From Leptotrichia sp. oral taxon 223 (GTDB taxonomy: Bacteria > Fusobacteriota > Fusobacteriia > Fusobacteriales > Leptotrichiaceae), in NCBI RefSeq assembly GCF_013394795.1, contig NZ_JABXYU010000004.1, positions 186,001 through 250,000 on the forward strand: a stretch of 64,000 nucleotides of DNA. Direction: 5' to 3'. Shown one piece after another: positions 12,003-43,559 of the stretch (within the stretch, counting starts at the first letter, position 1; each line of letters begins with the position of its first letter). The notes beneath the pieces are model-generated. The model ran no database searches and was not told where the DNA came from. It worked only from the letters and a program-made list of their open reading frames with translations. Made by a program: the position numbers and the translations under genes.

Positions 12003-13098
12003 ATGGATTTATTTGAAATAAAAAAACAGAATGAAATAAATGAAACTAATATTGAAGAAATCAGGAGGCATCTTTGACATTGAAAATTTAAAAAATGAAA
12101 TTGATAACTTGGAAAAAAAGACGTTTGAGGCAGATTTTTGGAATAATAAGAATAGTCAGGAAATATTGAAAAATATCAGTACGAAAAAAAAGCTGCTTGA
12201 AGAATATACTAATTTAAACGGGCTTTTTGAAGATGTTTCTACAATCATTGAATTTATTGAGATGGGGGACAATTCATTTGCAAATGAACTTGAGCAGAAG
12301 GCACAGGATTTAAAGAATGAAATTGATAATTTTAAGACAAAATTGCTTCTGGATGAGGAATACGACATAAATAATGCTATTCTTACGATAAATTCGGGAG
12401 CTGGCGGAACCGAGGCATGTGACTGGGCTGAAATGCTTTACAGAATGTACGACAGGTGGGCAAACCGGCATAATTTCAAAGTTGAAATTCTTGACAGCCT
12501 AGCTGGAGAAGAAGCTGGAATAAAAAGTATAACACTAAATATAAAGGGAAATTACGCTTATGGATATCTAAAAGGGGAAAAAGGCGTACATAGACTTGTC
12601 AGAATTTCCCCGTTTGACTCGAATGCCAGACGCCATACTTCATTTGCCGCAGTAAATGTTACCCCAGAAATAGAAGATGACGTTGAAATAGATATTCACA
12701 CAGAAGACTTGAAAATTGACACTTACAGGGCAAGCGGTGCTGGAGGGCAGCATGTAAACACAACAGACTCAGCTGTAAGAATCACACATATTCCAACAAA
12801 TACAGTAGTTACCTGCCAAAACGAACGTTCACAGCTAAAAAACCGTGAAACTGCAATGAAAATCTTAAAATCCAAATTATTCGAGCTGGAATTAGAAAAG
12901 CGTGAAAAGGAAATGGCAGAATTAAAAGGAACCGAATCAAAAATCGAATGGGGAAGCCAAATCCGTTCATATGTCTTCCAACCTTACAAAATGGTAAAGG
13001 ATCATAGGACAAAGGCAGAAGAAGGAAATGTGGAAAAAGTTATGGATGGAGATATCGACTTATTTATAAATGAATATTTAAAATACGCTAAATCCTAA
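12003..13098 (+). CDS. prfB: Peptide chain release factor 2 (programmed +1 frameshift)
   Basis: RF2 ends translation at UGA and UAA. The coding sequence is split: 24 codons from ATG 12003, then CTT TGA at 12072-12077, where the ribosome slips +1 and continues as GAC from 12076 to the stop at 13098, for 364 residues. The main frame shows the SPF recognition tripeptide in VRISPFDSNARR and the GGQ peptidyl-hydrolase motif in ASGAGGQHVNTTDSAVR, near residue 247. An AGAGG ribosome site precedes the ATG. Length is normal for RF2 once the shift is included. The leading 24 residues match the usual short N-terminal segment. The frameshift is autoregulation: scarce RF2 slows termination at UGA and favours the slip. 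Confidence 0.95.
12063..12078 (+). promoter_or_regulatory. RF2 programmed frameshift site
   Basis: AGGAGG (12063-12068) is an internal Shine-Dalgarno three bases before CTT TGA C (12072-12078). This matches the known prfB recoding signal: SD, a slippery CUU Leu codon, UGA stop and a following C. Reading CTT then GAC bridges the two frames. Confidence 0.95.
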
Positions 13099-13162
13099 TA
13101 ATGTACTTAAAATTTAAAATAATTTTACTTATAATAACTAAAATAATTGAAAGGCTTAAAAT

Positions 13163-13726
13163 ATGAAAAATACTAGATGTCCGTGGGCAAAATCTGAAAA
13201 TGACATTGCCTACCACGATACTGAATGGGGAGTGCCTTCCCACGATGACAGTTATATTTTTGAAATGCTAATATTGGAGGGCTTTCAGGCTGGACTTAGC
13301 TGGAATCTTATTTTGAATAAAAGAGAGAATTTTAGAAGTGCTTTTGATAATTTTGATTATAAAAAAATTGCAAAATATGATGAAAACAAGTTGGCTGAAC
13401 TATCTGAAAATAAAGGGATTGTTAGAAATAAATTAAAAATAGCTGCTTCTGTTAAAAACGCCCTTGCATTCATGGAAGTACAAAAGGAATTTGGCTCATT
13501 TGACAAGTACATCTGGAATTTTACAGATAATAAGCAAATTATAAATAGCTGGAAAGACATATCAGAAGTGCCTGCTACTACTGAATTATCGGATAAAATT
13601 AGTAAAGATTTGAAAAAACGTGGCTTTAAATTTGTTGGATCTACAATCATTTATTCTTTCTTACAGGCAATCGGAATAGTTGATGACCATTTAATTAGTT
13701 GTCCTTATAAAAAATCAGCTAAATAA
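13163..13726 (+). CDS. tag: DNA-3-methyladenine glycosylase I
   Basis: The 187-residue enzyme removes 3-methyladenine from alkylated DNA, the first step of base excision repair. It starts with the family hallmark RCPWAKSENDIAYHDTEWGVP, with zinc ligands Cys6 and His18; the other two ligands are in DDHLISCPYK at the C-terminus. The helix-hairpin core GFQAGLSWNLILNKRENFR contains the catalytic Glu-side pocket seen in Tag. Length agrees with Tag (about 187 residues in E. coli). It lies 64 bases after prfB and may share its transcript. Confidence 0.95.
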   Translation: MKNTRCPWAKSENDIAYHDTEWGVPSHDDSYIFEMLILEGFQAGLSWNLILNKRENFRSAFDNFDYKKIAKYDENKLAELSENKGIVRNKLKIAASVKNALAFMEVQKEFGSFDKYIWNFTDNKQIINSWKDISEVPATTELSDKISKDLKKRGFKFVGSTIIYSFLQAIGIVDDHLISCPYKKSAK

Positions 13727-13765
13727 TTATTTATAAAATTTTATTCATATTTGATTTTTTTTATC

Positions 13766-13793
13766 GTAAGGGCACTAGACGCCATGCCCTTAC
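13766..13793. repeat. Perfect 9-bp palindromic stem-loop without U-tract
   Basis: GTAAGGGCA at 13766-13774 and TGCCCTTAC at 13785-13793 form a perfect stem around a 10-base loop. It lies between convergent tag and rnmV, but neither strand has a T-run directly after the stem, so it is not a standard terminator. It resembles small dispersed palindromic elements of the GTAGGGGC...GCCCCTAC type. Confidence 0.5.
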
Positions 13794-13815
13794 AACCCTG
13801 CTTCTCGAATTTTAA

Positions 13816-14400
13816 TTATCGGGATAAACTATTTATTTCTTCAACAGCTTCCTCAAACTGTTCTTTTGAAATATTAAATGAATTAAGAGCCTTCAAAAGC
13901 TGTTTTGCATTATAATAGCCAATTTTTAAAATATCTCCAAGCATTATTCTACGTTCCTTTGCATTACTTCCCAAAACAAATCCATTATCAATCAAATCAC
14001 TAATATTAAATCTATTTTCACCATCTTGATTAGCTGTAATAACATTTTTCAAAGCCTCTAAAATTACTTTGTCATTAGCATTTTCCACTCCGATATTATC
14101 ATTTTTAGTTGCATCTCTTTGACTCACGAAAGCGTGCTTTATATTCGGAATATATCTTTTTAATATGTCACGAATTTTTTTTCCTGCAAAATCAGGATCT
14201 GTAAATAAAATTAAATCGTTATTTTTTGACAGTTCAACTATTTTATTTATTGTTTTTTTAGATAATGCGGAAAAGCCGTTTAAGGCAATAATATGTGCAT
14301 CTACAACTCGTTTTATGGCTGTTATGTCATCTCGCCCTTCGACTACTATAATTTCGTTTATTTTCAGTTTTTCTTTTTGTTTATTTGGCTCTTTTTTCAT
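13816..14400 (-). CDS. rnmV: Ribonuclease M5 (Toprim nuclease)
   Basis: The 194-residue protein is a small Toprim enzyme that cuts 5S rRNA precursors in Bacillus. The Toprim Glu is in INEIIVVEGRDD at about residues 13-24, and the metal-binding Asp pair is in LILFTDPDFAGKKIRDIL near 62-79. Between them lies NGFSALSKKTINKIVELSKN. The C-terminal region is helical. It follows pepD by 27 bases on the same strand. No ribosomal RNA gene is visible nearby, which is normal for this gene. Small Toprim proteins can be confused with DnaG fragments, but the length and order fit RNase M5. Confidence 0.88.
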   Translation of the reverse strand: MKKEPNKQKEKLKINEIIVVEGRDDITAIKRVVDAHIIALNGFSALSKKTINKIVELSKNNDLILFTDPDFAGKKIRDILKRYIPNIKHAFVSQRDATKNDNIGVENANDKVILEALKNVITANQDGENRFNISDLIDNGFVLGSNAKERRIMLGDILKIGYYNAKQLLKALNSFNISKEQFEEAVEEINSLSR

Positions 14401-14427
14401 TTAATATTTCCTTCTGATTTTTTATTT

Positions 14428-15912
14428 TTATTTAATATTATAATCTTCCATAACTTTTAGCAGTAATTTCCAAGTTTTTCCAACTGACTCTATTTCCATT
14501 CTTTCTTCTGGAGTGTGAGCACCATAAATATTAGGCCCGATTGAAACAATATCGATGTTTTCCATATTGTTATCAAAAATTCCACATTCCAGTCCAGCGT
14601 GAATTGCCTTAATTTCAGGATCCTTCCCTGTTATTTTCTTAAATGAATTTACTACAATATCACGAATTTTTGAGTCTTTTCGGTATTCCCAAGATGGATA
14701 TGGAGAATTTATTTTTACTGCCACTTCATATTTTTCAGAAAGTTCCTTTACATCATTTAATAACCTTTCAAGCGATTTATTCACCGAACTTCTTGGCAAT
14801 GCCTGAGTTTTTATTGCAATTTTCCCATCTTCATTTTCAGTTTTTATAACTCCAAGATTTATTGAAGTTTCCACAAGCCCTTCGATATCCTTGCTCATCG
14901 AAATAACTCCATTTGGAAATTCATGCAAGAATAAAATAACGGCATTTGTATTAGAAATTGACAATTTCCCTTCATTTTTCAGTTTCTCTTTTTTAACTTC
15001 CTTCACTTCAATAACTGGATTTTTGTCAATAATTTTAAAATCTTTTGTTATATTTTCAAAAGCCAGTTTTGCCAATCTTTCAAAATCGCTGACTTTTTCA
15101 TCCTCAAGTTTCACAGCCAGCAACGCCACTGCCTCTCTTGGTATCGCATTAGTCTTTTCCCCACCGTCAATGTCCATTATTGCAAGAGTGTATTTTTTAT
15201 TTAAGTGATTCAGAACTTCTGCCAAAATTTTATTTGAATTCCCTAATCCTAAATGAATTTCAGCTCCTGAATGTCCACCTAGAAGCCTTTTCACATCAAC
15301 ACTTATCACAGTGTCATCATCTTCGAGCTTTTCTGCATCAAAGTTAAACTCATTAAAGATTCTCGCACCACCTGCACTGCTTACATAAACTTGTCCGTAT
15401 TCTTCAGTATCCAAGTTTATAAGTGTCTTTCCAGAAAAAATCCCAAAGTCAAGGTTATTAACTCCGCTCATTCCGTCCTCTTCGTCAGTTGTGATAATAA
15501 TTTCAAGTGCTGGATGTTTCAAGTCATTACTGTCAAGTATCGCAAGTGCATAAGCCACAGCAATTCCATTATCCGCTCCAAGTGTCGTTCCATTTGCTTT
15601 CAAATATCCACCTTCCACAACAAGCTCAATTCCCTGTGTTTCAAAGTCAAACTCTGTATTTTTATTTTTTTCCCAAACCATATCCATATGCCCCTGCAGG
15701 ATAAGTGGCGAATATTCTTCATACCCTGCTGTTGCTGGCTTTCTTATTAATACATTCAATGCCTTGTCCTGAATAGCTTCCAGATTTCTTTCCTTTGCAA
15801 ATTGTACAATCCAGTCACTAATTTTTTTTTCTTTTCCCGAACCTCTCGGTATTTTTGATATTTCACTAAAATACTGAAAAACTTTTTCAGGATATAAATT
15901 TTCTATTTTCAT
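14428..15912 (-). CDS. pepD: Aminoacyl-histidine dipeptidase (peptidase D, M20 family)
   Basis: The 494-residue zinc dipeptidase cleaves Xaa-His and other unspecific dipeptides in the cytoplasm. M20 motifs are in order: ILQGHMDMVWEKN near 86 (zinc His and catalytic Asp), LGADNGIAVAYALAI near 127, TTDEEDGMSGV near 158 (general base Glu), RLLGGHSGAEIHLGLGN near 227, and the late AIHAGLECGIFDNN near 440. Length matches PepD (about 485). The start follows GGAAA. The gene likely feeds on peptides, as expected for an oral or gut fermenter. A hairpin at 15944-15962 separates it from the small gene upstream, so it may have its own promoter. Confidence 0.92.
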   Translation of the reverse strand: MKIENLYPEKVFQYFSEISKIPRGSGKEKKISDWIVQFAKERNLEAIQDKALNVLIRKPATAGYEEYSPLILQGHMDMVWEKNKNTEFDFETQGIELVVEGGYLKANGTTLGADNGIAVAYALAILDSNDLKHPALEIIITTDEEDGMSGVNNLDFGIFSGKTLINLDTEEYGQVYVSSAGGARIFNEFNFDAEKLEDDDTVISVDVKRLLGGHSGAEIHLGLGNSNKILAEVLNHLNKKYTLAIMDIDGGEKTNAIPREAVALLAVKLEDEKVSDFERLAKLAFENITKDFKIIDKNPVIEVKEVKKEKLKNEGKLSISNTNAVILFLHEFPNGVISMSKDIEGLVETSINLGVIKTENEDGKIAIKTQALPRSSVNKSLERLLNDVKELSEKYEVAVKINSPYPSWEYRKDSKIRDIVVNSFKKITGKDPEIKAIHAGLECGIFDNNMENIDIVSIGPNIYGAHTPEERMEIESVGKTWKLLLKVMEDYNIK

Positions 15913-32690: not shown

Positions 32691-32714
32691 ATTTACAAAT
32701 TGTGCTATTAAAAT
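32691..32714 (-). repeat. Terminal degenerate repeat of array-2 type
   Basis: This leader-distal repeat is 24 bp. It lacks five bases of the consensus and carries the array 2 variants (ATTGTGC where the other array 1 repeats have AAATGTTC). Confidence 0.85.
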
Positions 32715-33920
32715 TTTGACTCTTACTAATACAAATCACGGAACAGCAAAATTTACAATACAAAATGTTCTATTAAAATGAGGGGCATTTACAACTCGGG
32801 AACATATTAATCCAAATTTACAATACAAAATGTTCTATTAAAATTCTTAATGCCGCCTGTGCATAATTCCGAATGTCCAAATTTACAATACAAAATGTTC
32901 TATTAAAATAAAATATGCAGAATCTTCATTATCACGTTATGAAAAATTTACAATACAAAATGTTCTATTAAAATAATATATTGTTAAAATTTGACAAATT
33001 AAAAAAAGTAATTTACAATACAAAATGTTCTATTAAAATTGTCACAAATGGGTCAAATTGCGCATTTGGTCTTCCATTTACAATACAAAATGTTCTATTA
33101 AAATTTCTCTTTGTAAAAAATGTGATACCATTGTAAACTGATTTACAATACAAAATGTTCTATTAAAATTTAATGTTTCCTGCAATTTACAGAGATTTAA
33201 AGGACATTTACAATACAAAATGTTCTATTAAAATAAATAAAATATACTTCAAAATTTATATCACTTCCAAATTTACAATACAAAATGTTCTATTAAAATT
33301 TAGATCAAGAAAATCATCCGTTATTCCTCTATCGTATTTACAATACAAAATGTTCTATTAAAATCACCTTCAAGATTGTTTGTTCCATTTATGTATAAAT
33401 ATTTACAATACAAAATGTTCTATTAAAATGAACGAATTACTAGGTAGGGTAAATCTTGCTTACAAATTTACAATACAAAATGTTCTATTAAAATTTTTGA
33501 TACAAAAACCACACTCCGCTTTGGTTATATATTTACAATACAAAATGTTCTATTAAAATACATAACTTAAAATATATCAAGGAGATGAGATAAAAATTTA
33601 CAATACAAAATGTTCTATTAAAATTAGCATTGAGTTTCTTTATAATGTTTTTTCTTTCAAATTTACAATACAAAATGTTCTATTAAAATGTTTGATGCCG
33701 TAATGTTCTCAACCTTGTCATAATGATTTACAATACAAAATGTTCTATTAAAATAACGAGACAATAGTGACTATTGCAAAGCCAAATGAGATTTACAATA
33801 CAAAATGTTCTATTAAAATTACGACTAAAAAAATAAACCACCATCGTTTATAAATATTTACAATACAAAATGTTCTATTAAAATAGCTATATATAATTGT
33901 AGGCAATATTATTTTAATGA

Positions 33921-34180
33921 ATTTACAATACAAAATGTTCTATTAAAATTATTCACAGATTTGGAAGATGTGAAACGATACAGGGATTTACAATACAAAA
34001 TGTTCTATTAAAATAAATTTATTTTAGTATTTCCAATTTTCATAAATTTAATTTACAATACAAAATGTTCTATTAAAATTATTCACAGATTTGGAAGATG
34101 TGAAACGATACAGGGATTTACAATACAAAATGTTCTATTAAAATAAATTTATTTTAGTATTTCCAATTTTCATAAATTTA
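33921..34180 (-). repeat. Tandem duplication of two repeat-spacer units
   Basis: 33921-34050 (130 bp, two repeats and two spacers) is repeated exactly at 34051-34180, at the leader-proximal end of array 1. This indicates recombination between repeats, since new acquisitions would differ. Confidence 0.95.
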
Positions 34181-34209
34181 ATTTACAATACAAAATGTTC
34201 TATTAAAAT

Positions 34210-34405
34210 CAAACCATTATTACTCTTTTTGAATATCATATCATTTTTTTCAATTTTTGTCGATACCCAATTTTTTTATAAAATTTTGGTAATAATTTTT
34301 TATTTTTAAAATAAAAATATCAAAAAAAGTTGTAAAAATCAATGGTTTAGGAAATCTGTCAATATTCAGGGATTTTTTAGTTATTGGACATCGACAGATT
34401 TTTCT
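34210..34405 (-). promoter_or_regulatory. Leader and promoter of CRISPR array 1
   Basis: The 190-base flank is homologous, in inverted orientation, to 43048-43239. On the minus strand TCGACA (34258-34263) and TATGAT (34235-34240) stand 17 bases apart, and the matching boxes are conserved in the other leader. An inverted repeat, AAATCTGTC (34352-34360) with GACAGATTT (34393-34401), lies at the far end and is kept in array 2 with one wobble change. It may bind an adaptation factor. Confidence 0.8.
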
Positions 34406-34412
34406 GGGATTG

Positions 34413-34691
34413 TTAAAAAAAATTTGAGGTTTTGTCGTCTTCTAATCCCCAAAATTCTTTTTCTAGCCATTTTTCTTGACGTGATTTGAAAATTATTAAT
34501 GAGTCTTTGTCTTTGCGAATGTATCGTTTTAGTTCGAGATTTCATTTTTTTAATAAAACTGGGGTTATTTCTCCTTCAAATACTGATTTTTGAACATTTG
34601 TTAAGTACTTTTTGCAAATTTTAAATACATTTCGAGAAATTCTTGGGCCATTGTCATCTGTTAGGATGTCATAAACTAAAATTATATACAT
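34413..34691 (-). pseudogene. cas2: Cas2 with in-frame TGA
   Basis: Cas2 is the dimeric scaffold of the Cas1-Cas2 integrase that inserts new spacers. The frame starts one base after cas1 ends, MYIILVYDILTDDNGPRISR, with the usual first-strand Asp, and reaches LKK at codon 49; codon 50 (34542-34544) is TGA. The frame then continues without any other stop: NLELKRYIRKDKDSLIIFK to residue 92, the normal Cas2 length. A Trp codon TGG changed to TGA is the simplest origin. Without readthrough only 49 residues are made, lacking the second half of the ferredoxin fold, so adaptation should fail. The frame itself shows no other decay, so the change is recent or the stop is read through. Confidence 0.85.
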
Positions 34692-34692
34692 A

Positions 34693-35685
34693 CTACCACC
34701 ATATTTTAAATCCTTCGTATTTTTTATCTTCTAGCAAATGTTTTACTAATTTGTATGCTTCTAAACGCATTAGATGCCGGTAAGAAACTTTTCGGTTTAA
34801 ATCTCTGTGCTTTATTGAGGTTTCTAATCTTTCGTTAAAAGTTTTTAAAATTAATTTCTGTGCATTTTCTTTCATATAAAAATAATTTGAATCTTTGAAA
34901 AAATCTTTTTCTGTTATCATTTTTTTATTTAAAAGAGAAAAAATAATTCTATCTGCCAAAAGAGGCTTAAATACCTCGGCAATATCAAGCGATAATGAAA
35001 ATCTTCTTTCTCCTACACTATGTAAATAACTTATTGTAGGATTCAACTGACTAACATATATTTCAGACAGACAGGCAGTGTAAACTAATGTGTTCAAAAA
35101 AGAAATCATAGTATTTATCATATTATCAGGCGGTCTTTTTACTCTTTTTTCAAAATCAATTTCTTGATTAACAATTGTATTCCATGCGGTATAATAAGTA
35201 CGTCTGATACTTCCTTCAATTCCCATTAACTCATTAATTTCGTTTGTTCTAAAAATTCCTTTTTTCAGTGCCTTAATTTCTGTTATTACGGATTCTAAAT
35301 CTTTTCCTCGTTCCTGATAATATCTTAAATTTCGCAAAATATTTGTGCTTGCTGCATCTATTATTAATTGTGCTAATTCAATTCTTTTGGCATTGTCTGT
35401 ATAATTTTCAACTTGCTTTACGAATAGTTTTCCAGAAACATTTGATTCTTTTGGATAAAATGTTCCAGTGTAAAAACCATAATAATTAAAAATATGAACA
35501 GGAATTTTATTCTGTGCCAAGTAATTTAAACATTTTGTATTTAATGAAACTTCTCCAAATAAGTAAATATCTCTTGTAACTTCTATTTTTATATCTTTAA
35601 AACGTCCATCTGGCGCTGTTATTCTTATAACATTATCTTTACGTTTTAATTCACCGCTGGAAAAAATAAAATAACTTTCTGCCAT
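34693..35685 (-). CDS. cas1: CRISPR integrase Cas1 (type I-B)
   Basis: The 330-residue Cas1 is the catalytic subunit of spacer integration. The N-terminal beta domain starts MAESYFIFSSGELKRKDNVI; the C-terminal helical domain holds the metal site: GIEGSIRRTYYTAW (Glu), PTISYLHSVGERRFSLSLDIAEVFKP (His and Asp). Length is typical for I-B. I use ATG 35685 after GAGAGG, not the ATG at 35733, which adds 16 residues that overlap the space before cas4. It ends IWW just before cas2. The protein itself looks intact, so any adaptation defect would come from cas2. Confidence 0.95.
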   Translation of the reverse strand: MAESYFIFSSGELKRKDNVIRITAPDGRFKDIKIEVTRDIYLFGEVSLNTKCLNYLAQNKIPVHIFNYYGFYTGTFYPKESNVSGKLFVKQVENYTDNAKRIELAQLIIDAASTNILRNLRYYQERGKDLESVITEIKALKKGIFRTNEINELMGIEGSIRRTYYTAWNTIVNQEIDFEKRVKRPPDNMINTMISFLNTLVYTACLSEIYVSQLNPTISYLHSVGERRFSLSLDIAEVFKPLLADRIIFSLLNKKMITEKDFFKDSNYFYMKENAQKLILKTFNERLETSIKHRDLNRKVSYRHLMRLEAYKLVKHLLEDKKYEGFKIWW

Positions 35686-35720
35686 TTTATACCTCTCTTT
35701 ATGATATTTTTTTATTAATT

Positions 35721-36209
35721 TTAAATGTAACAAAATTCATAGTATGCACATTTTTTACAAATTTTATCATTAATTACAGGAGGAGCTTTTTCATTTTTAC
35801 AAATTTTTTCAATATCAATTAAAATTTCCTTCAATGTATTTTCGTCCTCTTTTGTCAAAATTATTTCCTTACGTTCCCTAATTACAGGATAATCAATGAT
35901 TCCTTTTTCAATTTTTATTCCACGTCGCTTTAAAAAATAAATATAGTATTTCACTTGCCAAATTGCCGCCTCTTCTACAGCCTTGCTTTTTTTTACTTCG
36001 TGAACGACTTGCCATTTACGGATAAAATCAATATTTACGGTTTCTTCTATCATAACTTGTTTAGTTTCCAAATTGTAACTGTTTTCATCAATTAATTTTC
36101 CTAGTTGAACATTTTCATTTTCTTCTTCAAGATTAATATTTTTGGATTGACACCACAATTTACGTTTACATACAAAATAATAATTTATCATAAGTCCTGT
36201 TATTTTCAT
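35721..36209 (-). CDS. cas4: CRISPR-associated exonuclease Cas4
   Basis: The 162-residue Cas4 is a RecB-like nuclease that trims prespacers and selects the PAM during adaptation. It starts MKITGLMINYYFVCKRKLWC, with the first iron-sulfur Cys near residue 14; the PD-(D/E)XK core shows KIEKGIIDYPVIRERKEI; three C-terminal cysteines lie in ICKKCAYYEFCYI. Length is that of small Cas4 proteins of types I-B and I-C. It sits 35 bases before cas1 and 18 after cas3 in the operon. Confidence 0.92.
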   Translation of the reverse strand: MKITGLMINYYFVCKRKLWCQSKNINLEEENENVQLGKLIDENSYNLETKQVMIEETVNIDFIRKWQVVHEVKKSKAVEEAAIWQVKYYIYFLKRRGIKIEKGIIDYPVIRERKEIILTKEDENTLKEILIDIEKICKNEKAPPVINDKICKKCAYYEFCYI

Positions 36210-36227
36210 TGTTTCACCTCATAACAT

Positions 36228-38627
36228 TTAAAAAGTATTATCTTCAAAAAAATCTTGATTTTTCATTTTTACTTCAAATCCTTTTTCATATGAATAATCA
36301 CAATCTAAAATAATCAATGTTTCATAATCATTTATTTCCATTTTTTCTACTTGTTCAGGAGAAATATCATCAAATTCATATTCAGGAATTGCTACTTTAA
36401 ATTGATTTATTTCTCGTCTTGCTTCTATTTTTTCACTCCTTAAATTTTTCCGCTCTTTTTCATTCAATCCCTTTGCTTTCTTCTGCAGGATTTCAATATT
36501 TTTCTTTATTTCTTTTTCATTTTGCTGATAAATAATTTTTGGAATTATATCTTTTGAAGCAATATTTCTAAAAATTTTCTGTACTTCTGATTTTGTTTTT
36601 TCATACTCCACTATATAATTTTTCAAAGCATAAATATTTTTTACTAATTTTCCATAATACTCTGTATCTTTTAAATTTTCAGTAGAATAAACCTCATCAA
36701 TCAATTCCAATTTTTCCTTTTCTGTAAGTAATCCGTCAATGTCTATCAGTGCTTCTTTAGATTTTTGATGAATTTCTTTATCTATAACTGCTTTGGAACT
36801 TTTTATTCCGGAACACTCTTCTGTAAAAACATAGCAGTTATATTTTTCATCCAAAATCTCTCTATTTCTGTAACATCTTCCCATTCTCTGAAAAAGTCCA
36901 TTCAAATCTGATAATTCTGTAACGAGAATATCAAAATCCAAATCAAGAGATGCTTCAACTACTTGTGTACCAATCCAGATTCCATTTTCACAAATATTTT
37001 TTAATTCTCTTTCCTTTTTCACATTTTCCTTAAATCTTTTAGGATTGGCAAATTCAGAAATTTCTTTTTCTTTTTTAGCTCTGTCCTTTTTTATAAATCG
37101 GCTATGAAGCAGATTCAATTCTTTACATTCTATTCCTAATTTTTTTAAATCTTCATATATTTGTTTGGATTTTTTGACAGTGTTGCAGACAACTAAAATT
37201 TTATTATCTTTATAATTTTCTTTTATAAATTTAGCATTAATAACTTCTTTTAATATTTTCAAATTATGTCTTTTCTTATCATTTATAAAAGGTTCTCTAG
37301 TCTCAAATTCTATTTCTTCCTTTTTTAACAAATCTGTGATAATTCCTGGTAAAGTGGCAGTCATTATAGCGAATTTCCCACCAAAATCTGTAATATATTT
37401 TAGTCCATATATCAAATAAGCTAATAAATCCGTTGAATACATCTGAATTTCATCAATAACTACTTTAGAATAAGATAGTGTAGCAACTTTTAATTCAAAT
37501 CCTGGTGCTCTGAAAACAAAATCAAAAAGCTGGTCTATTGTGCAGACTGTCAATGGTAAAGATAGCTGCTTTGTTTTATCCATATATATAAACAGCTCAT
37601 CATTATCCATCTTTTCTGGATTATTTTTTTCCTTCTTTTTTATATCTTCTATATATATTTCTCTAAAATCTGAATGTAGCAGTCCTATTCTATTTTCCAG
37701 TTTTTCAATTACAATCTGATTTTTCACTCTGTCAAAAATTGCATTAATTGCTACTCTTAACGGCAATGTAAAAAAGCCCTTATTATTACCTATCCAAAGT
37801 AGTCCCGCTTCAGTCTTTCCATATCCTGTCTGTGCTACCACTACAACATTTTTATTTTGATTATGAATCATAAACTTCTGCAACTCATTCCAGTCATTCT
37901 CAGGATTATCCCTTTTCAATATATTTTTTAGAAAAGCATTCATTTTCTCTTCAAGAAAATCATTTTTTTCCTCAACTGGAATATATGAACTTGCAGCATA
38001 GTCTATTTTATTCAGTAATCCTTTTAACATTACATATTTTTGAAAAGTTTCAGAACCTTCTACATCAGAATAGACTCTACTTCCTATTTCATAAAATAAA
38101 GAGCTTAATTGTGCTAATTCAACTTTTCCATCTTCCCAATTAAAAATTGCTTTTCTATCTTTATAATTCTCAGTATTTTTAAAATATTCAAAATAAATAT
38201 TTTCCAGAATTTTTAATTCCTTTGAAAAATTTTTAACTTCATTGTTCATTGAATATATCTCATCAGATAAATCACTGTCATTTATTTCCATTAAATTTCT
38301 TTCATGATGTAAAGCTACAGAATGAGCTAAAATTTTTATTTCATCTTCACTAAAATGATGATATTCAATTAAAATATCATCATTTATAAATGAAGTACTG
38401 AGTATCCCATGAGGAATTTCCCCACTTTGCTTTTCACCAGACAGTTTGCTCTGAAATTTCTGATTTATTTTCCCTAAATCATGATAGATACACGCAAGCA
38501 ATAACAGCTTTTTTTCAACATTTAATTTAGGATAGACCATAAAAATTTTCATAAAATTATTAAACAGATTTTCTGTGTGTCTTAATATTGTTTCGCCACT
38601 AGATTTAGCTAAAAAATTATTCTTCAT
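36228..38627 (-). CDS. cas3: CRISPR effector nuclease-helicase Cas3
   Basis: The 799-residue Cas3 shreds DNA marked by Cascade. The HD nuclease domain at the N-terminus has ACIYHDLGKINQKFQ (HD at 49-50) with LRHTENL before it and HSVALHHERN later. The helicase has Walker A VAQTGYGKTEAG near 265, DEIQ box VVIDEIQMYS near 395, MTATLP near 425 and the motif VI segment GLFQRMGRCYRNR near 590. Both domains are fused in one chain, as usual for type I-B. No interrupting stop or shift is visible, so the effector half of the system is intact here. Confidence 0.95.
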   Translation of the reverse strand: MKNNFLAKSSGETILRHTENLFNNFMKIFMVYPKLNVEKKLLLLACIYHDLGKINQKFQSKLSGEKQSGEIPHGILSTSFINDDILIEYHHFSEDEIKILAHSVALHHERNLMEINDSDLSDEIYSMNNEVKNFSKELKILENIYFEYFKNTENYKDRKAIFNWEDGKVELAQLSSLFYEIGSRVYSDVEGSETFQKYVMLKGLLNKIDYAASSYIPVEEKNDFLEEKMNAFLKNILKRDNPENDWNELQKFMIHNQNKNVVVVAQTGYGKTEAGLLWIGNNKGFFTLPLRVAINAIFDRVKNQIVIEKLENRIGLLHSDFREIYIEDIKKKEKNNPEKMDNDELFIYMDKTKQLSLPLTVCTIDQLFDFVFRAPGFELKVATLSYSKVVIDEIQMYSTDLLAYLIYGLKYITDFGGKFAIMTATLPGIITDLLKKEEIEFETREPFINDKKRHNLKILKEVINAKFIKENYKDNKILVVCNTVKKSKQIYEDLKKLGIECKELNLLHSRFIKKDRAKKEKEISEFANPKRFKENVKKERELKNICENGIWIGTQVVEASLDLDFDILVTELSDLNGLFQRMGRCYRNREILDEKYNCYVFTEECSGIKSSKAVIDKEIHQKSKEALIDIDGLLTEKEKLELIDEVYSTENLKDTEYYGKLVKNIYALKNYIVEYEKTKSEVQKIFRNIASKDIIPKIIYQQNEKEIKKNIEILQKKAKGLNEKERKNLRSEKIEARREINQFKVAIPEYEFDDISPEQVEKMEINDYETLIILDCDYSYEKGFEVKMKNQDFFEDNTF

Positions 38628-38660
38628 ATTAGACTCCTATATATAATAAAAATATTTAAC

Positions 38661-40324
<1,664 letters not shown>

Positions 40325-40326
40325 AA

Positions 40327-42096
40327 TTATTCATTCCCTTCTTTTTTATCTGTCTTATTTTCATTCTTACTTTTATCTTCACCTAATAAACCTAATAAAA
40401 ATCCATGTCCTAATGTCTGAAAATTTTCATCATTTAAAAGTGCTTTAGCAAAAAGTGAGCTGATATTTTTTCCTGCATAAGCATGAGCTGAAATCAGAGC
40501 ATCCATAAACATATCAACATTATTAATTCTCAAAGCATTCTGAAGTCTGTATAACAGACTTCCAATCTTTTTATCATTTCCACTTTTTCTTATATATTCT
40601 TCCCTAAAAATCATTGCATCTCTTCTTATATAGAAAATATCTTTTTCTGTTAATTCTTCTGACGTTTTCTTATTTTCCTTTTTTTCAATTATTTCTTGCT
40701 TATCCATTTTCTTCAACCTCCTGATATAATCTAAATTTATTTTTAGTAAATCTTCTATATTTTTTAATTTACAATACAATTTTGTTTTTGAAATTTTATA
40801 GTAACATAATTTGTTTATTAGCGAGAATAAATTCTGATTATTTAACAATTCTGTTATTGTCGTATCGTAAATATTAAAATATCTTTTATCAATTAAATAC
40901 CATTTATCTAATAAATCATCTAATTTTTCTTTATTTTCAGATAAAAGCTTTAAAATATTTCGTGATAACAAAGTAAACTTATAGTGTCCTTCCTCAAACT
41001 TTACAATCTGAATATCTGATAATTCATATTTTGTATTGTCTTTTTCCTTCTTAATTTCCTTTAATAAATTTTTATACAGATTTATATTCTTTTCTTCTGA
41101 CTCATCTTCTAAAATATTATATGCAATTCCATTGTTTATATTACATAATTGATCTATATTATGATTTGCGTTTACAAATATTCCTTTATCGGCTCCATAT
41201 ATAAATCCTGCCGGAACGCAGGAATAAACCAATGTAACCAAAGGAGTTACTGCAATATCATTTACAAAATTCCAGACATGTGATGGTTTTCTACTCACAT
41301 CAAAACCTGTGTCATTTAAAAATCCTAATGTATTTTTATAATCCTTCATCTGCATATTTGAAATTACACATTTATATTTAAATTTAGATTTGTCAGCATT
41401 AACATATTCTAATGCAGGTTCTACAAAATATGATTTATATTCGTCATAAATATCTTTAGCGGCATTTGCCCTATTTAAAAATGATACACTGCTCCAAGCA
41501 TTGTTTATTATTACATAAGCTATATTTTTGGCAGCAAGATAATTTTTTACATTTCCTTCCTTATCAGTTATTTTCCTTTTAAAAAAATCAATAATCTCCT
41601 TCATAGTCTTAAGATAATTTTTTACATTATCATTTGAAATTTCAGCAATATTTTCTTTAGGTTCTTTTATTTTTTTTAATTCCTTTTCCAGTCCTAAAAT
41701 TTTATTAGTTCCATTTTTTTCTATGAAATCATATGCCTTTTTATAACTTTCAGATTTGATTTTAGCTTTAAAGAATGTAATTTTATCATTTATCATTTTT
41801 AATTCATTAATACTTCTAATTTTTTCTCCATTCTCCTCAAATTCATCAATATATTTCTCAAATTCTAAAATTTTACCATAAGTCAATGTTTTTCCATATC
41901 TTTTTATAAAAAAATTAAAGTATTTATACTCGAAGTTTTCCAAAACTTTTGGAGAAAATCTTATTAAGCGATTTTTATCATCTATTTCCAGTTCTCCATT
42001 ATTCCTTGCTTCTTCTCCAAGAATATTTATAAATCCTAATAACCCAGCATTAAATAATCAATCCTTCAATTTCAATTCTATTTTTTCATCACTCAT
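40327..42096 (-). pseudogene. cas8b1: Cascade large subunit Cas8b1/Cst1 with in-frame TGA at codon 13
   Basis: Cas8b1 recognises the PAM and recruits Cas3. The full frame from ATG 42096 (GGAAGAAAA upstream) is 590 codons: MSDEKIELKLKD, then TGA (42058-42060), then LFNAGLLGFINILGEE and on to the stop at 40327. Cst1 proteins have a conserved DWLYNAG-type start, so the TGA replaces the expected Trp. Beyond it the frame is open for 577 codons with normal codon use. A TTG at 41943 could restart, but would lose 51 residues, including the conserved NAGLLGF segment, and has no clear ribosome site. Either the gene has just been lost by a G-to-A change, or TGA is bypassed. Confidence 0.85.
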
Positions 42097-42120
42097 TTTT
42101 CTTCCTTTTCTTAATTTAAA

Positions 42121-42903
42121 TTATTTCAATTTTTCCAGCATTCCGAATCCACTTCCAGTTATGCTCCCAATCCCTGCATTATAAATATAATCCAAAATGT
42201 AACTTTTTCCTTCCAATTTCAATATACCAACTGAAGTATCCAAAAATTTACCATTAAATTTATTTTCATAATTTAAAGTTTTATCTTTTTTAGTTTTATC
42301 ATAATGCTTAACAACAACCTTTTTAGTCTGACTTGAATCTATTATCAAATCTTCAATATCTTTTTTTACATATTCTCCTTTTAATTCTTTAAGTTTTAAA
42401 TAAAGATTTCTTTTTATAATTTTAGAAAATTTATCATCTGTCCCTGTATAATAGGTGTCTTTTTTAGTTTCTTGATCATGATCACGGCAAACTATTGGAG
42501 ACATAGTTTTAACAATTAATATGTTATCCTTTATAATTTGCCTTGGTAAAATCGAAATATTAGTAACCACAACCTTTGTCTCTTCTGAAATTTTTATCTC
42601 TTTAAACCTGATACCTGAAAAAGCATTATAAATGTTTAAACTATCAACATTATCATATGCCGAAAGGTTAACGATAATCTTTTTTTCCTCTCCTAAAAAT
42701 TTAACTTTATCCTTTTCAAATTTCACATTTCGAAAATAAGCTGACCATGTATAATTTTTCTGTTTTGCAGATCCAAAAAATTCTTCAAAAATTTCATTAT
42801 CACATTTTTTCAGTCCTGTTTTTAAGACGCATAAAATTTTTGATCTCCAATTTATAGGAAAGCTGCTACCTTCTGTTAATTCAATATTAATCTTAAATCT
42901 CAT
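42121..42903 (-). CDS. cas6: CRISPR RNA endonuclease Cas6
   Basis: The 260-residue RAMP protein cuts the repeat RNA to make crRNAs. It is the first gene of the cas operon. N-terminal MRFKINIELTEGSSFPINWR begins the first RAMP fold; the C-terminal glycine-rich loop GIGSITGSGFGMLEKLK is the family hallmark. A catalytic His candidate lies in the CRDHDQE segment or in VVVKHYDK; I cannot tell which. Length is usual for Cas6 of I-B. Its 24-base gap to cas8b1 contains the ribosome site. Confidence 0.93.
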   Translation of the reverse strand: MRFKINIELTEGSSFPINWRSKILCVLKTGLKKCDNEIFEEFFGSAKQKNYTWSAYFRNVKFEKDKVKFLGEEKKIIVNLSAYDNVDSLNIYNAFSGIRFKEIKISEETKVVVTNISILPRQIIKDNILIVKTMSPIVCRDHDQETKKDTYYTGTDDKFSKIIKRNLYLKLKELKGEYVKKDIEDLIIDSSQTKKVVVKHYDKTKKDKTLNYENKFNGKFLDTSVGILKLEGKSYILDYIYNAGIGSITGSGFGMLEKLK

Positions 42904-42956
42904 TTTCTTATTGTACCTTTCTTTCCATTATTTTTTTCTTTGAAATATAATAATAT

Positions 42957-42984
42957 ATTATATCCTATTTTTTATAAAAGTAAA
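42957..42984 (-). promoter_or_regulatory. Probable promoter of the cas operon
   Basis: On the minus strand TTTACT (42979-42984) and TATAAT (42957-42962) stand 16 bases apart, 54 bases upstream of the cas6 start. It lies between cas6 and the divergent leader of array 2. Confidence 0.5.
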
Positions 42985-43047
42985 TACTTATATAATAAAC
43001 TTTTATTATTATTTAATAGATAATTTTCTTAGATATTAAATATTATT

Positions 43048-43239
43048 AATCTGTCGATGCCCAATAACTAAAAAATTCCTGTATACCGACAAATTCTTAA
43101 AATTACTGATTTTTATTGACTTTCTTAAATATTTTATTTTGAAAATAAAAAATCATCTTTTAAAATTTTTGGAAAAAATTAAGTATCGACAAAATTGTTA
43201 AAAAATGATATTATATTTAGGGTAACTAATAATGATATG
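43048..43239 (+). promoter_or_regulatory. Leader and promoter of CRISPR array 2
   Basis: It is homologous in inverted orientation to the leader of array 1. TCGACA (43186-43191) and TATTAT (43209-43214), 17 bases apart, form the conserved promoter, about 25 bases before the first repeat. AATCTGTCG (43048-43056) and CGACAAATT (43087-43095) form the conserved inverted repeat, with one G-T pair. Confidence 0.8.
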
Positions 43240-43464
43240 ATTTTAATAGCACAATTTGTATTGTAAATCTTTTATACTTTCTGTTATACCATTTTCATAA
43301 CGTGATTTTAATAGCACAATTTGTATTGTAAATGTATTCTTTTATTTCTGTCAAGCATGTAAGCCTCGACATTTTAATAGCACAATTTGTATTGTAAATA
43401 CCTTATCAGAAATATGTAAATTTAGGTTACTTTGAATTTTAATAGCACAATTTGTATTGTAAAT
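43240..43464 (+). CRISPR. CRISPR array 2, type I-B, 4 repeats and 3 spacers
   Basis: Four identical 29-bp repeats start at 43240, 43305, 43371 and 43436. They begin ATTTTAATAGCACAAT and end TTGTATTGTAAAT, differing from the array 1 repeat at two positions. Spacers are 36, 37 and 36 bp. The leader is on the left, so the array is transcribed on the plus strand, divergent from the cas operon. The first spacer (43269-43304) overlaps a spacer of array 1 by 13 nt. Confidence 0.97.
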
Positions 43465-43559
43465 ATATTCTCATCTAAAAATAGGTACATTACTGTAAAG
43501 AAATTATCACAGGCATTTAATAATAAACCAAATAATATAATATAATAGGTGATAGAAAT

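Follow-up and report, generated by a model that had tools for sequence, protein, structure and literature searches.

Introduction

Type I-B systems of clustered regularly interspaced short palindromic repeats (CRISPR) and their cas genes have been described in Leptotrichia and in clostridia. The available excerpts of the Leptotrichia report (PMC6914741) list cas1, cas2, cas4, cas6, cas3, cas5, cas7 and cas8, place the arrays downstream of cas2 and/or upstream of cas6, and mention that some spacers match the genome which carries them. For C. difficile, the accessible part of one study (PMC8406132) gives CCN as the protospacer adjacent motif (PAM) used in uptake and YCN as that of interference, and a partly available compilation (PMC8482600) lists CCN for type I-B of Clostridium. 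Within the accessible parts of the literature on Leptotrichia CRISPR, overlapping spacers, I-B PAMs and self-targeting, we met no PAM for a Leptotrichia I-B system, although one could still be in print. The locus analysed here lies in Leptotrichia sp. oral taxon 223, in a stretch of 64,000 nt (contig NZ_JABXYU010000004.1, positions 186,001 to 250,000), which as a whole is referred to as the window.

This locus is an ordinary type I-B CRISPR-Cas system of a known kind. It has the gene set and array placement of the Leptotrichia systems, as far as the excerpts of that report (PMC6914741) describe them; it differs in that cas8 and cas2 carry in-frame stops, and neither an I-B PAM nor overlapping spacers were met in those excerpts. 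Very probably, each of the two arrays took a spacer from one 59-nt segment within a repressor gene, that of a temperate tailed phage.

Overlapping spacers and the targeted gene

The initial annotation had pointed to two spacers, one from each array, which overlap by 13 nt and join into 59 nt with an open frame on the opposite strand. The coordinates, the overlap, the join and the frame were all reproduced from the sequence. The 13 bases TTTTCATAACGTG close spacer A2_01 of array 2 and open the reverse complement of the interval of spacer A1_20 of array 1 (Table 1), and the two spacers are offset by 23 nt on the same strand. The reverse complement of the join is one open frame, which reads KYAESSLSRYENGITESIK. 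Spacer A1_20 had been described as the fourth of array 1; this holds when counting from the trailer, and counting from the leader makes it the 20th of 23. The next longest word common to any two spacers is 10 nt, the duplicated pair (A1_01/02 = A1_03/04) aside.

Among the 13 genomes of the genus (that of oral taxon 223 included), A1_20 was found outside the array with at most 3 mismatches at five places in three genomes. At all five places the A2_01 half directly adjoins the A1_20 match, and the join is present with 4-5 mismatches over 59 nt. A degenerate 41-nt pattern spanning the junction recovered the same five places, and none besides, in 96 genomes of the order. When compared with the copies of the gene in which the join lies, A1_20 shows 1-2 mismatches and A2_01 3-5.

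In genome G008 the site is located within a gene for a 142-aa protein containing NYAESSLSRYENGITESIKAEVL, and a gene for an M78/IrrE metallopeptidase then follows. The protein matched the PHROG "transcriptional repressor" (2.4e-06) as well as Pfam HTH_19 and HTH_3, the last two under their cut-offs; both a helix-turn-helix (HTH) domain and a prophage context, as expected of an XRE-type phage repressor, were thus found. Relatives of the repressor and the metallopeptidase occur together at all five places, in copies that are intact or decayed. They reach 100% in G008 (being the query), 92-93% on the chromosome of G012, and 68% and 45% in G003; those on the two G012 plasmids are in pieces. On the two phage-like circles of Leptotrichia wadei (G012) the repressor copies are decayed, that of C3 (L005/L017) having 6 stops inside the match and that of C2 (L006/L019) being split. 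ImmR/ImmA of ICEBs1 is a repressor with a metallopeptidase neighbour; as judged by Pfam and PHROG matches, the likeness is that an IrrE-type metallopeptidase comes directly after an XRE repressor.

Terminase and portal genes are situated approximately 12-14 kb downstream of the repressor in G008, where further open reading frames (ORFs) were read as capsid and tail-sheath genes, and phage tail and lysis genes are present on two L. wadei JMUB3936 plasmid records. The targeted gene is the repressor of a temperate tailed phage. Relatives of the G008 portal were found in 8 of the 13 genus genomes, including G003 and G008, and none in the genome of oral taxon 223 or in G012, which indicates that phages with a common repressor do not all have the same head genes. 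When compared by its portal, Fusobacterium phage JD-Fnp2 is 58.7% identical over 97% of the portal of the G008 prophage.

Two pattern scans of viral_contigs yielded no exact copy of the join. BLAST searches with the join produced only weak short matches among phages, some of them in CI-like repressor genes of Staphylococcus phages, and no exact copy among plasmids, where the best match was 94.7% over 57 of the 59 nt. The contiguous array 1 had no match among phages at E 0.1. It matched 10 plasmid records, two of which, from Leptotrichia (H61 and H62), carry a near-perfect A1_20 match; the remaining eight matches were weak (E 0.1 or worse). At the protein level, 12 pattern matches to the repressor in viral_contigs and 22 to the portal protein in genome_contigs left 0 confirmed in either case, and the terminase had two relatives in viral_contigs, L025 and L026. 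The proposal that both spacers read the same strand of one XRE-type HTH repressor gene from a phage immunity region is borne out by the contiguous join at five places, without an exact copy having been found. The phage that had been predicted to carry the join behind CCA was met only in the form of these relatives, with 4-5 mismatches and with CCA at one place of five.

Target flanks and further targets of the arrays

The collection of 24 distinct spacers and one array flank was scanned over 575 kb in 32 regions; L001-L006, L020-L024 and L027-L034 were left out, being the same regions or having been chosen only as matches. Spacers A1_03 and A1_04 were dropped before counting as duplicates. Two further matches near chance level were also dropped, namely that of A1_19 (8 mismatches, flank AGA, AT-rich) and that of A1_01 (8 mismatches in L122, flank CCC).

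CCN precedes the best match of each of the nine array 1 spacers that were counted. The flanks at 44 places were CCA (21), CCG (11), CCT (7), CCC (1), TCT (3) and TCA (1), i.e. 40 CCN and 4 TCN. Three of these places are on L025, a duplicate which lies wholly inside the G010 contig of L050/L051; without it, CCN stands at 37 of 41 places and TCN at 4 of 41. As judged from these protospacers, the targeting flank of array 1 is CCN, which supplies a sequence-based PAM for one array of an I-B system in Leptotrichia. The initial annotation had put forward CCA as the PAM of both arrays. This triplet does occur among the array 1 flanks, but the rule is CCN with some TCN, and the A1_20 protospacer itself is preceded by CCG at three of its five places and by CCA and CCC at one each. 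A single CCA PAM read from the overlapping pair fails for array 2, because A2_01 is flanked by CTG at all five places.

The likeness to the C. difficile system, as far as the accessible part of that study (PMC8406132) allows, comprises the CCN uptake flank, YCN in interference and a repeat ending in AAT. The differences are that strain 630 has 12 arrays and that the rule was experimentally proven there, whereas here it is deduced from flanks.

Genome G010, which carries a related locus, was included through five readable array stretches, one of which follows a last repeat, and one of the five had matches. This spacer of the left array is preceded by CCA at 3 of 3 places. The single stretch from the right array had no match, and the G010 stretches are therefore uninformative on array 2.

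With up to 8 mismatches, 10 of the 24 distinct spacers matched (one near-chance row dropped), and reversed spacers used as a control gave 0 matches at this limit and 4 at 9 mismatches. The matches of A1_13 and A1_16 are perfect. Spacer A1_21 falls in the terminase and A1_18 in the portal gene (by position in G008), A1_13 in a gene assigned to the tail tube by Pfam and to head closure by PHROGs, A1_08 in that of baseplate J, A1_16 in a Rha-type antirepressor, A1_11 in a Bro/KilAC antirepressor, A1_07 and A1_10 in two genes without known function, and A1_20 and A2_01 in the repressor. The stretch after the last array 2 repeat (43465-43500, scanned as "A2_04?") is array flank and had no match, and A2_03 had none under 12 mismatches. 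Pattern scans of viral_contigs with A2_02 (first 32 nt) and A2_03 gave 0, and at up to 3 mismatches in 33 family genomes these two spacers found only the array itself.

With so many spacers matching phage-like regions of the genus, an overlapping pair is unremarkable. The same follows from the expected number of same-strand overlapping pairs, which is 0.04-0.36 when 10 to 25 spacers are spread evenly on one genome of 30-40 kb.

A resident prophage and the state of the cas genes

The genome of oral taxon 223 (assembly 99.26% complete) contains phage genes on contig C1 at about 915-960 kb (left end approximate). All spacers were scanned against this region and the window, and A1_20, A1_16, A2_02, A2_03 and the join also against the rest of the genome. 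Spacer A1_16 matches the Rha antirepressor gene of the resident prophage (C1:943056-943091; L121:8056-8091), with mismatches at positions 13 and 28 only and with the flank CCT. This match is a plausible self-target. In the region of this prophage, genes for a radical SAM protein, GTP cyclohydrolase I and 6-pyruvoyl tetrahydropterin synthase stand side by side (L121:1389-3952; Pfam), a cluster which suggests that DNA is modified by a 7-deazaguanine pathway; Pfam gave no match for a neighbour of 259 aa.

The operon of G010, which is open and 96% identical at the DNA level, served as the reference for the cas genes. When compared with it, the window shows a TGA in cas8 (codon 13) and another in cas2 (codon 50), and the six further cas genes are open. 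In these six, the ratio of non-synonymous to synonymous differences (pN/pS) is 0.06-0.19, which makes the stops look recent. No intact Cas2 is thus encoded at the locus. Elsewhere in the genome there is a single Cas2-family match, which barely passes (24.2 bits against a cut-off of 23.8) and whose sequence is presumably VapD-like. An ORF of 538 aa is left in cas8; it has no NCBIfam match, and Cas_CXXC_CXXC was matched by the open cas8 of G010 and once in the genome of oral taxon 223.

The course of events may be pictured as follows. One phage, or close relatives of it, would be the source of both spacers. Uptake would follow CCN, with TCN tolerated in targets, and Cascade guided by CRISPR RNA (crRNA) would, together with Cas3, cut such phages. 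The stop in cas8 would then lead to a defect of interference and that in cas2 to a defect of uptake, and the cell would thereby keep a prophage which its own spacer matches. Whether the present cell is in fact defective in both functions, and so keeps its self-matched prophage, we regard as evenly balanced. A tie between the inactivation of the two genes and self-targeting is plausible and unproven. The strain offers a concrete example from nature of a cell that combines stops in one interference and one uptake gene with a spacer matching its own prophage near-perfectly and behind a PAM; whether the prophage or the loss of immunity came first would be testable in sister strains.

The opposite possibility, that the system is active, is doubtful but deserves to be weighed. 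In this case the stops would be sequencing errors, or be read through, or (in cas8) be bypassed by a later start, from which the 538-aa ORF could give a shortened protein. The six open genes with their low pN/pS are in line with this, and so is the nature of the stops, as TGA ends only 2 of the 50 ATG ORFs of at least 150 aa in the window. On the other hand, a mechanical scan of the window revealed 20 pairs of ORFs joined across a stop, 5 of them with TGA, including cas8 and cas2, the two that were compared with relatives. A reading of TGA as sense was set aside: relative to G010 one stop replaces Trp and the other Leu, and a single reassignment does not fit both.

Several points weigh against our overall interpretation. 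A number of the 41 flanking places are near-copies of each other and not independent, the exact source phage was not found in the viral_contigs scans or in the BLAST searches of phages and plasmids, and the CTG before A2_01 is outside YCN. Both stops are known from a single assembly. What ties the self-match to the broken genes is that these features coincide in one genome, the two mismatches of A1_16 might already spare the prophage, and the latter could carry an anti-CRISPR.

Other possible origins of the spacer pair

The flank of A2_01 raises the question of whether array 2 spacers follow a different rule, CTN, for example as a result of priming with imprecise ends or of uptake without Cas4. 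The constant CTG speaks for it, and so does CTA before the only A2_02 homologue found (7 mismatches, in the resident prophage). However, on the coding strand the middle base of CTG falls on the third position of an alanine codon, so that a silent difference in the true source phage could give CCG. The same codon position holds the middle base of CTA, within an open stretch of 63 codons (no ORF of at least 50 aa was found across this site), and a silent CCA may have stood there. Since the homologues are 3-7 mismatches from the spacers, array 2 neither confirms nor excludes CCN. Given in addition one cas operon and leaders that are 80% alike, we consider the CTN rule unlikely. Its full form, in which one I-B operon would obey two flank rules and array 2 would be filled by a distinct (primed or Cas4-independent) route while array 1 follows CCN, seems to us slightly less probable still.

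It is very improbable that both spacers were taken from the prophage still present in the genome. The resident repressor (L121:16810-17268) and the targeted one (L011:15479-15907) have a common C-terminal half (63% over residues 71-142) and a common metallopeptidase next to it, which would suit such an origin, but their N-terminal HTH halves differ, as expected for swapped immunity specificity. Moreover, a search allowing up to 3 mismatches found the join nowhere in this genome, and A1_20 only within the array.

Least probable of all is a chance overlap between AT-rich spacers. When spacer sets were simulated with a first-order model built on the 24 distinct spacers, 41 of 1500 sets contained a 13-mer common to two spacers, wherever it lay, which is less rare than a terminal overlap; a suffix-prefix overlap of at least 13 nt arose in 0 of 3000 (the longest being 12), and the join occurs in nature, in frame, at five places. 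The overlap arises since both spacers match one stretch of a phage repressor gene, which is ordinary CRISPR biology.

Organization of the locus

The two arrays point outward from one cas operon, with inverted leaders (Table 1). The assignment to type I-B is based on Cas1, Cas5 and Cas7 together with Cas3, Cas4 and Cas6. In NCBIfam, cas1 reached 437.9 bits with TIGR03641 (cut-off 304.1), Cas5t 99.4 (96.7) and Cst2/DevR 226.8 (72.75), and cas3, cas4 and cas6 were also above their cut-offs. The 23 full repeats of array 1 span 32751-34209 (minus-strand reading) and differ from those of array 2 at 2 of 29 bases. A search of the window for transfer RNA genes found none.

Table 1. Features of the type I-B locus (positions in the window)
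Feature	Position	Strand	Remarks
Shortened terminal repeat of array 1, array 2 repeat type	32691..32714	-	ATTTTAATAGCACAATTTGTAAAT in crRNA orientation
CRISPR array 1	32715..34209	-	23 identical 29-nt repeats and 23 spacers of ~36 nt (21 distinct); leader on right
Spacer A1_20, second part of join	32910..32945	-	repressor gene match; flank CCG, CCA or CCC
Spacer A1_16	33170..33205	-	perfect CCT-flanked match in G002; 2-mismatch CCT-flanked match in resident prophage
Array 1 leader	34210..34409	-	80% identical over 173 nt to stretch before array 2
cas2	34413..34691	-	in-frame TGA at codon 50 of 92; open copy in G010
cas1 (I-B type)	34693..35685	-	TIGR03641; sole cas1 match in genome
cas4	35721..36209	-	TIGR00372
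cas3 (HD nuclease and helicase)	36228..38627	-	TIGR01587, TIGR01596
cas5b	38661..39425	-	TIGR01895
cas7 (Cst2/DevR type)	39428..40324	-	TIGR02585
cas8 (Cas_CXXC_CXXC)	40327..42096	-	in-frame TGA at codon 13 of 589; PF09706 on G010 copy, once in own genome
cas6	42121..42903	-	TIGR01877
Array 2 leader	43040..43239	+	inverted relative to array 1 leader
CRISPR array 2	43240..43464	+	4 repeats and 3 spacers
Spacer A2_01, first part of join	43269..43304	+	3-5 mismatches to repressor gene; CTG at 5/5

Counted from the leader, spacers 1 and 2 of array 1 recur in tandem, without any difference, as spacers 3 and 4 (window 33950-34180). Among the repeats of G010 (L086:3080-3948 and 12980-14696), seven belong to the array 2 type, and the last one of the right array, which is worn, resembles the array 1 type.

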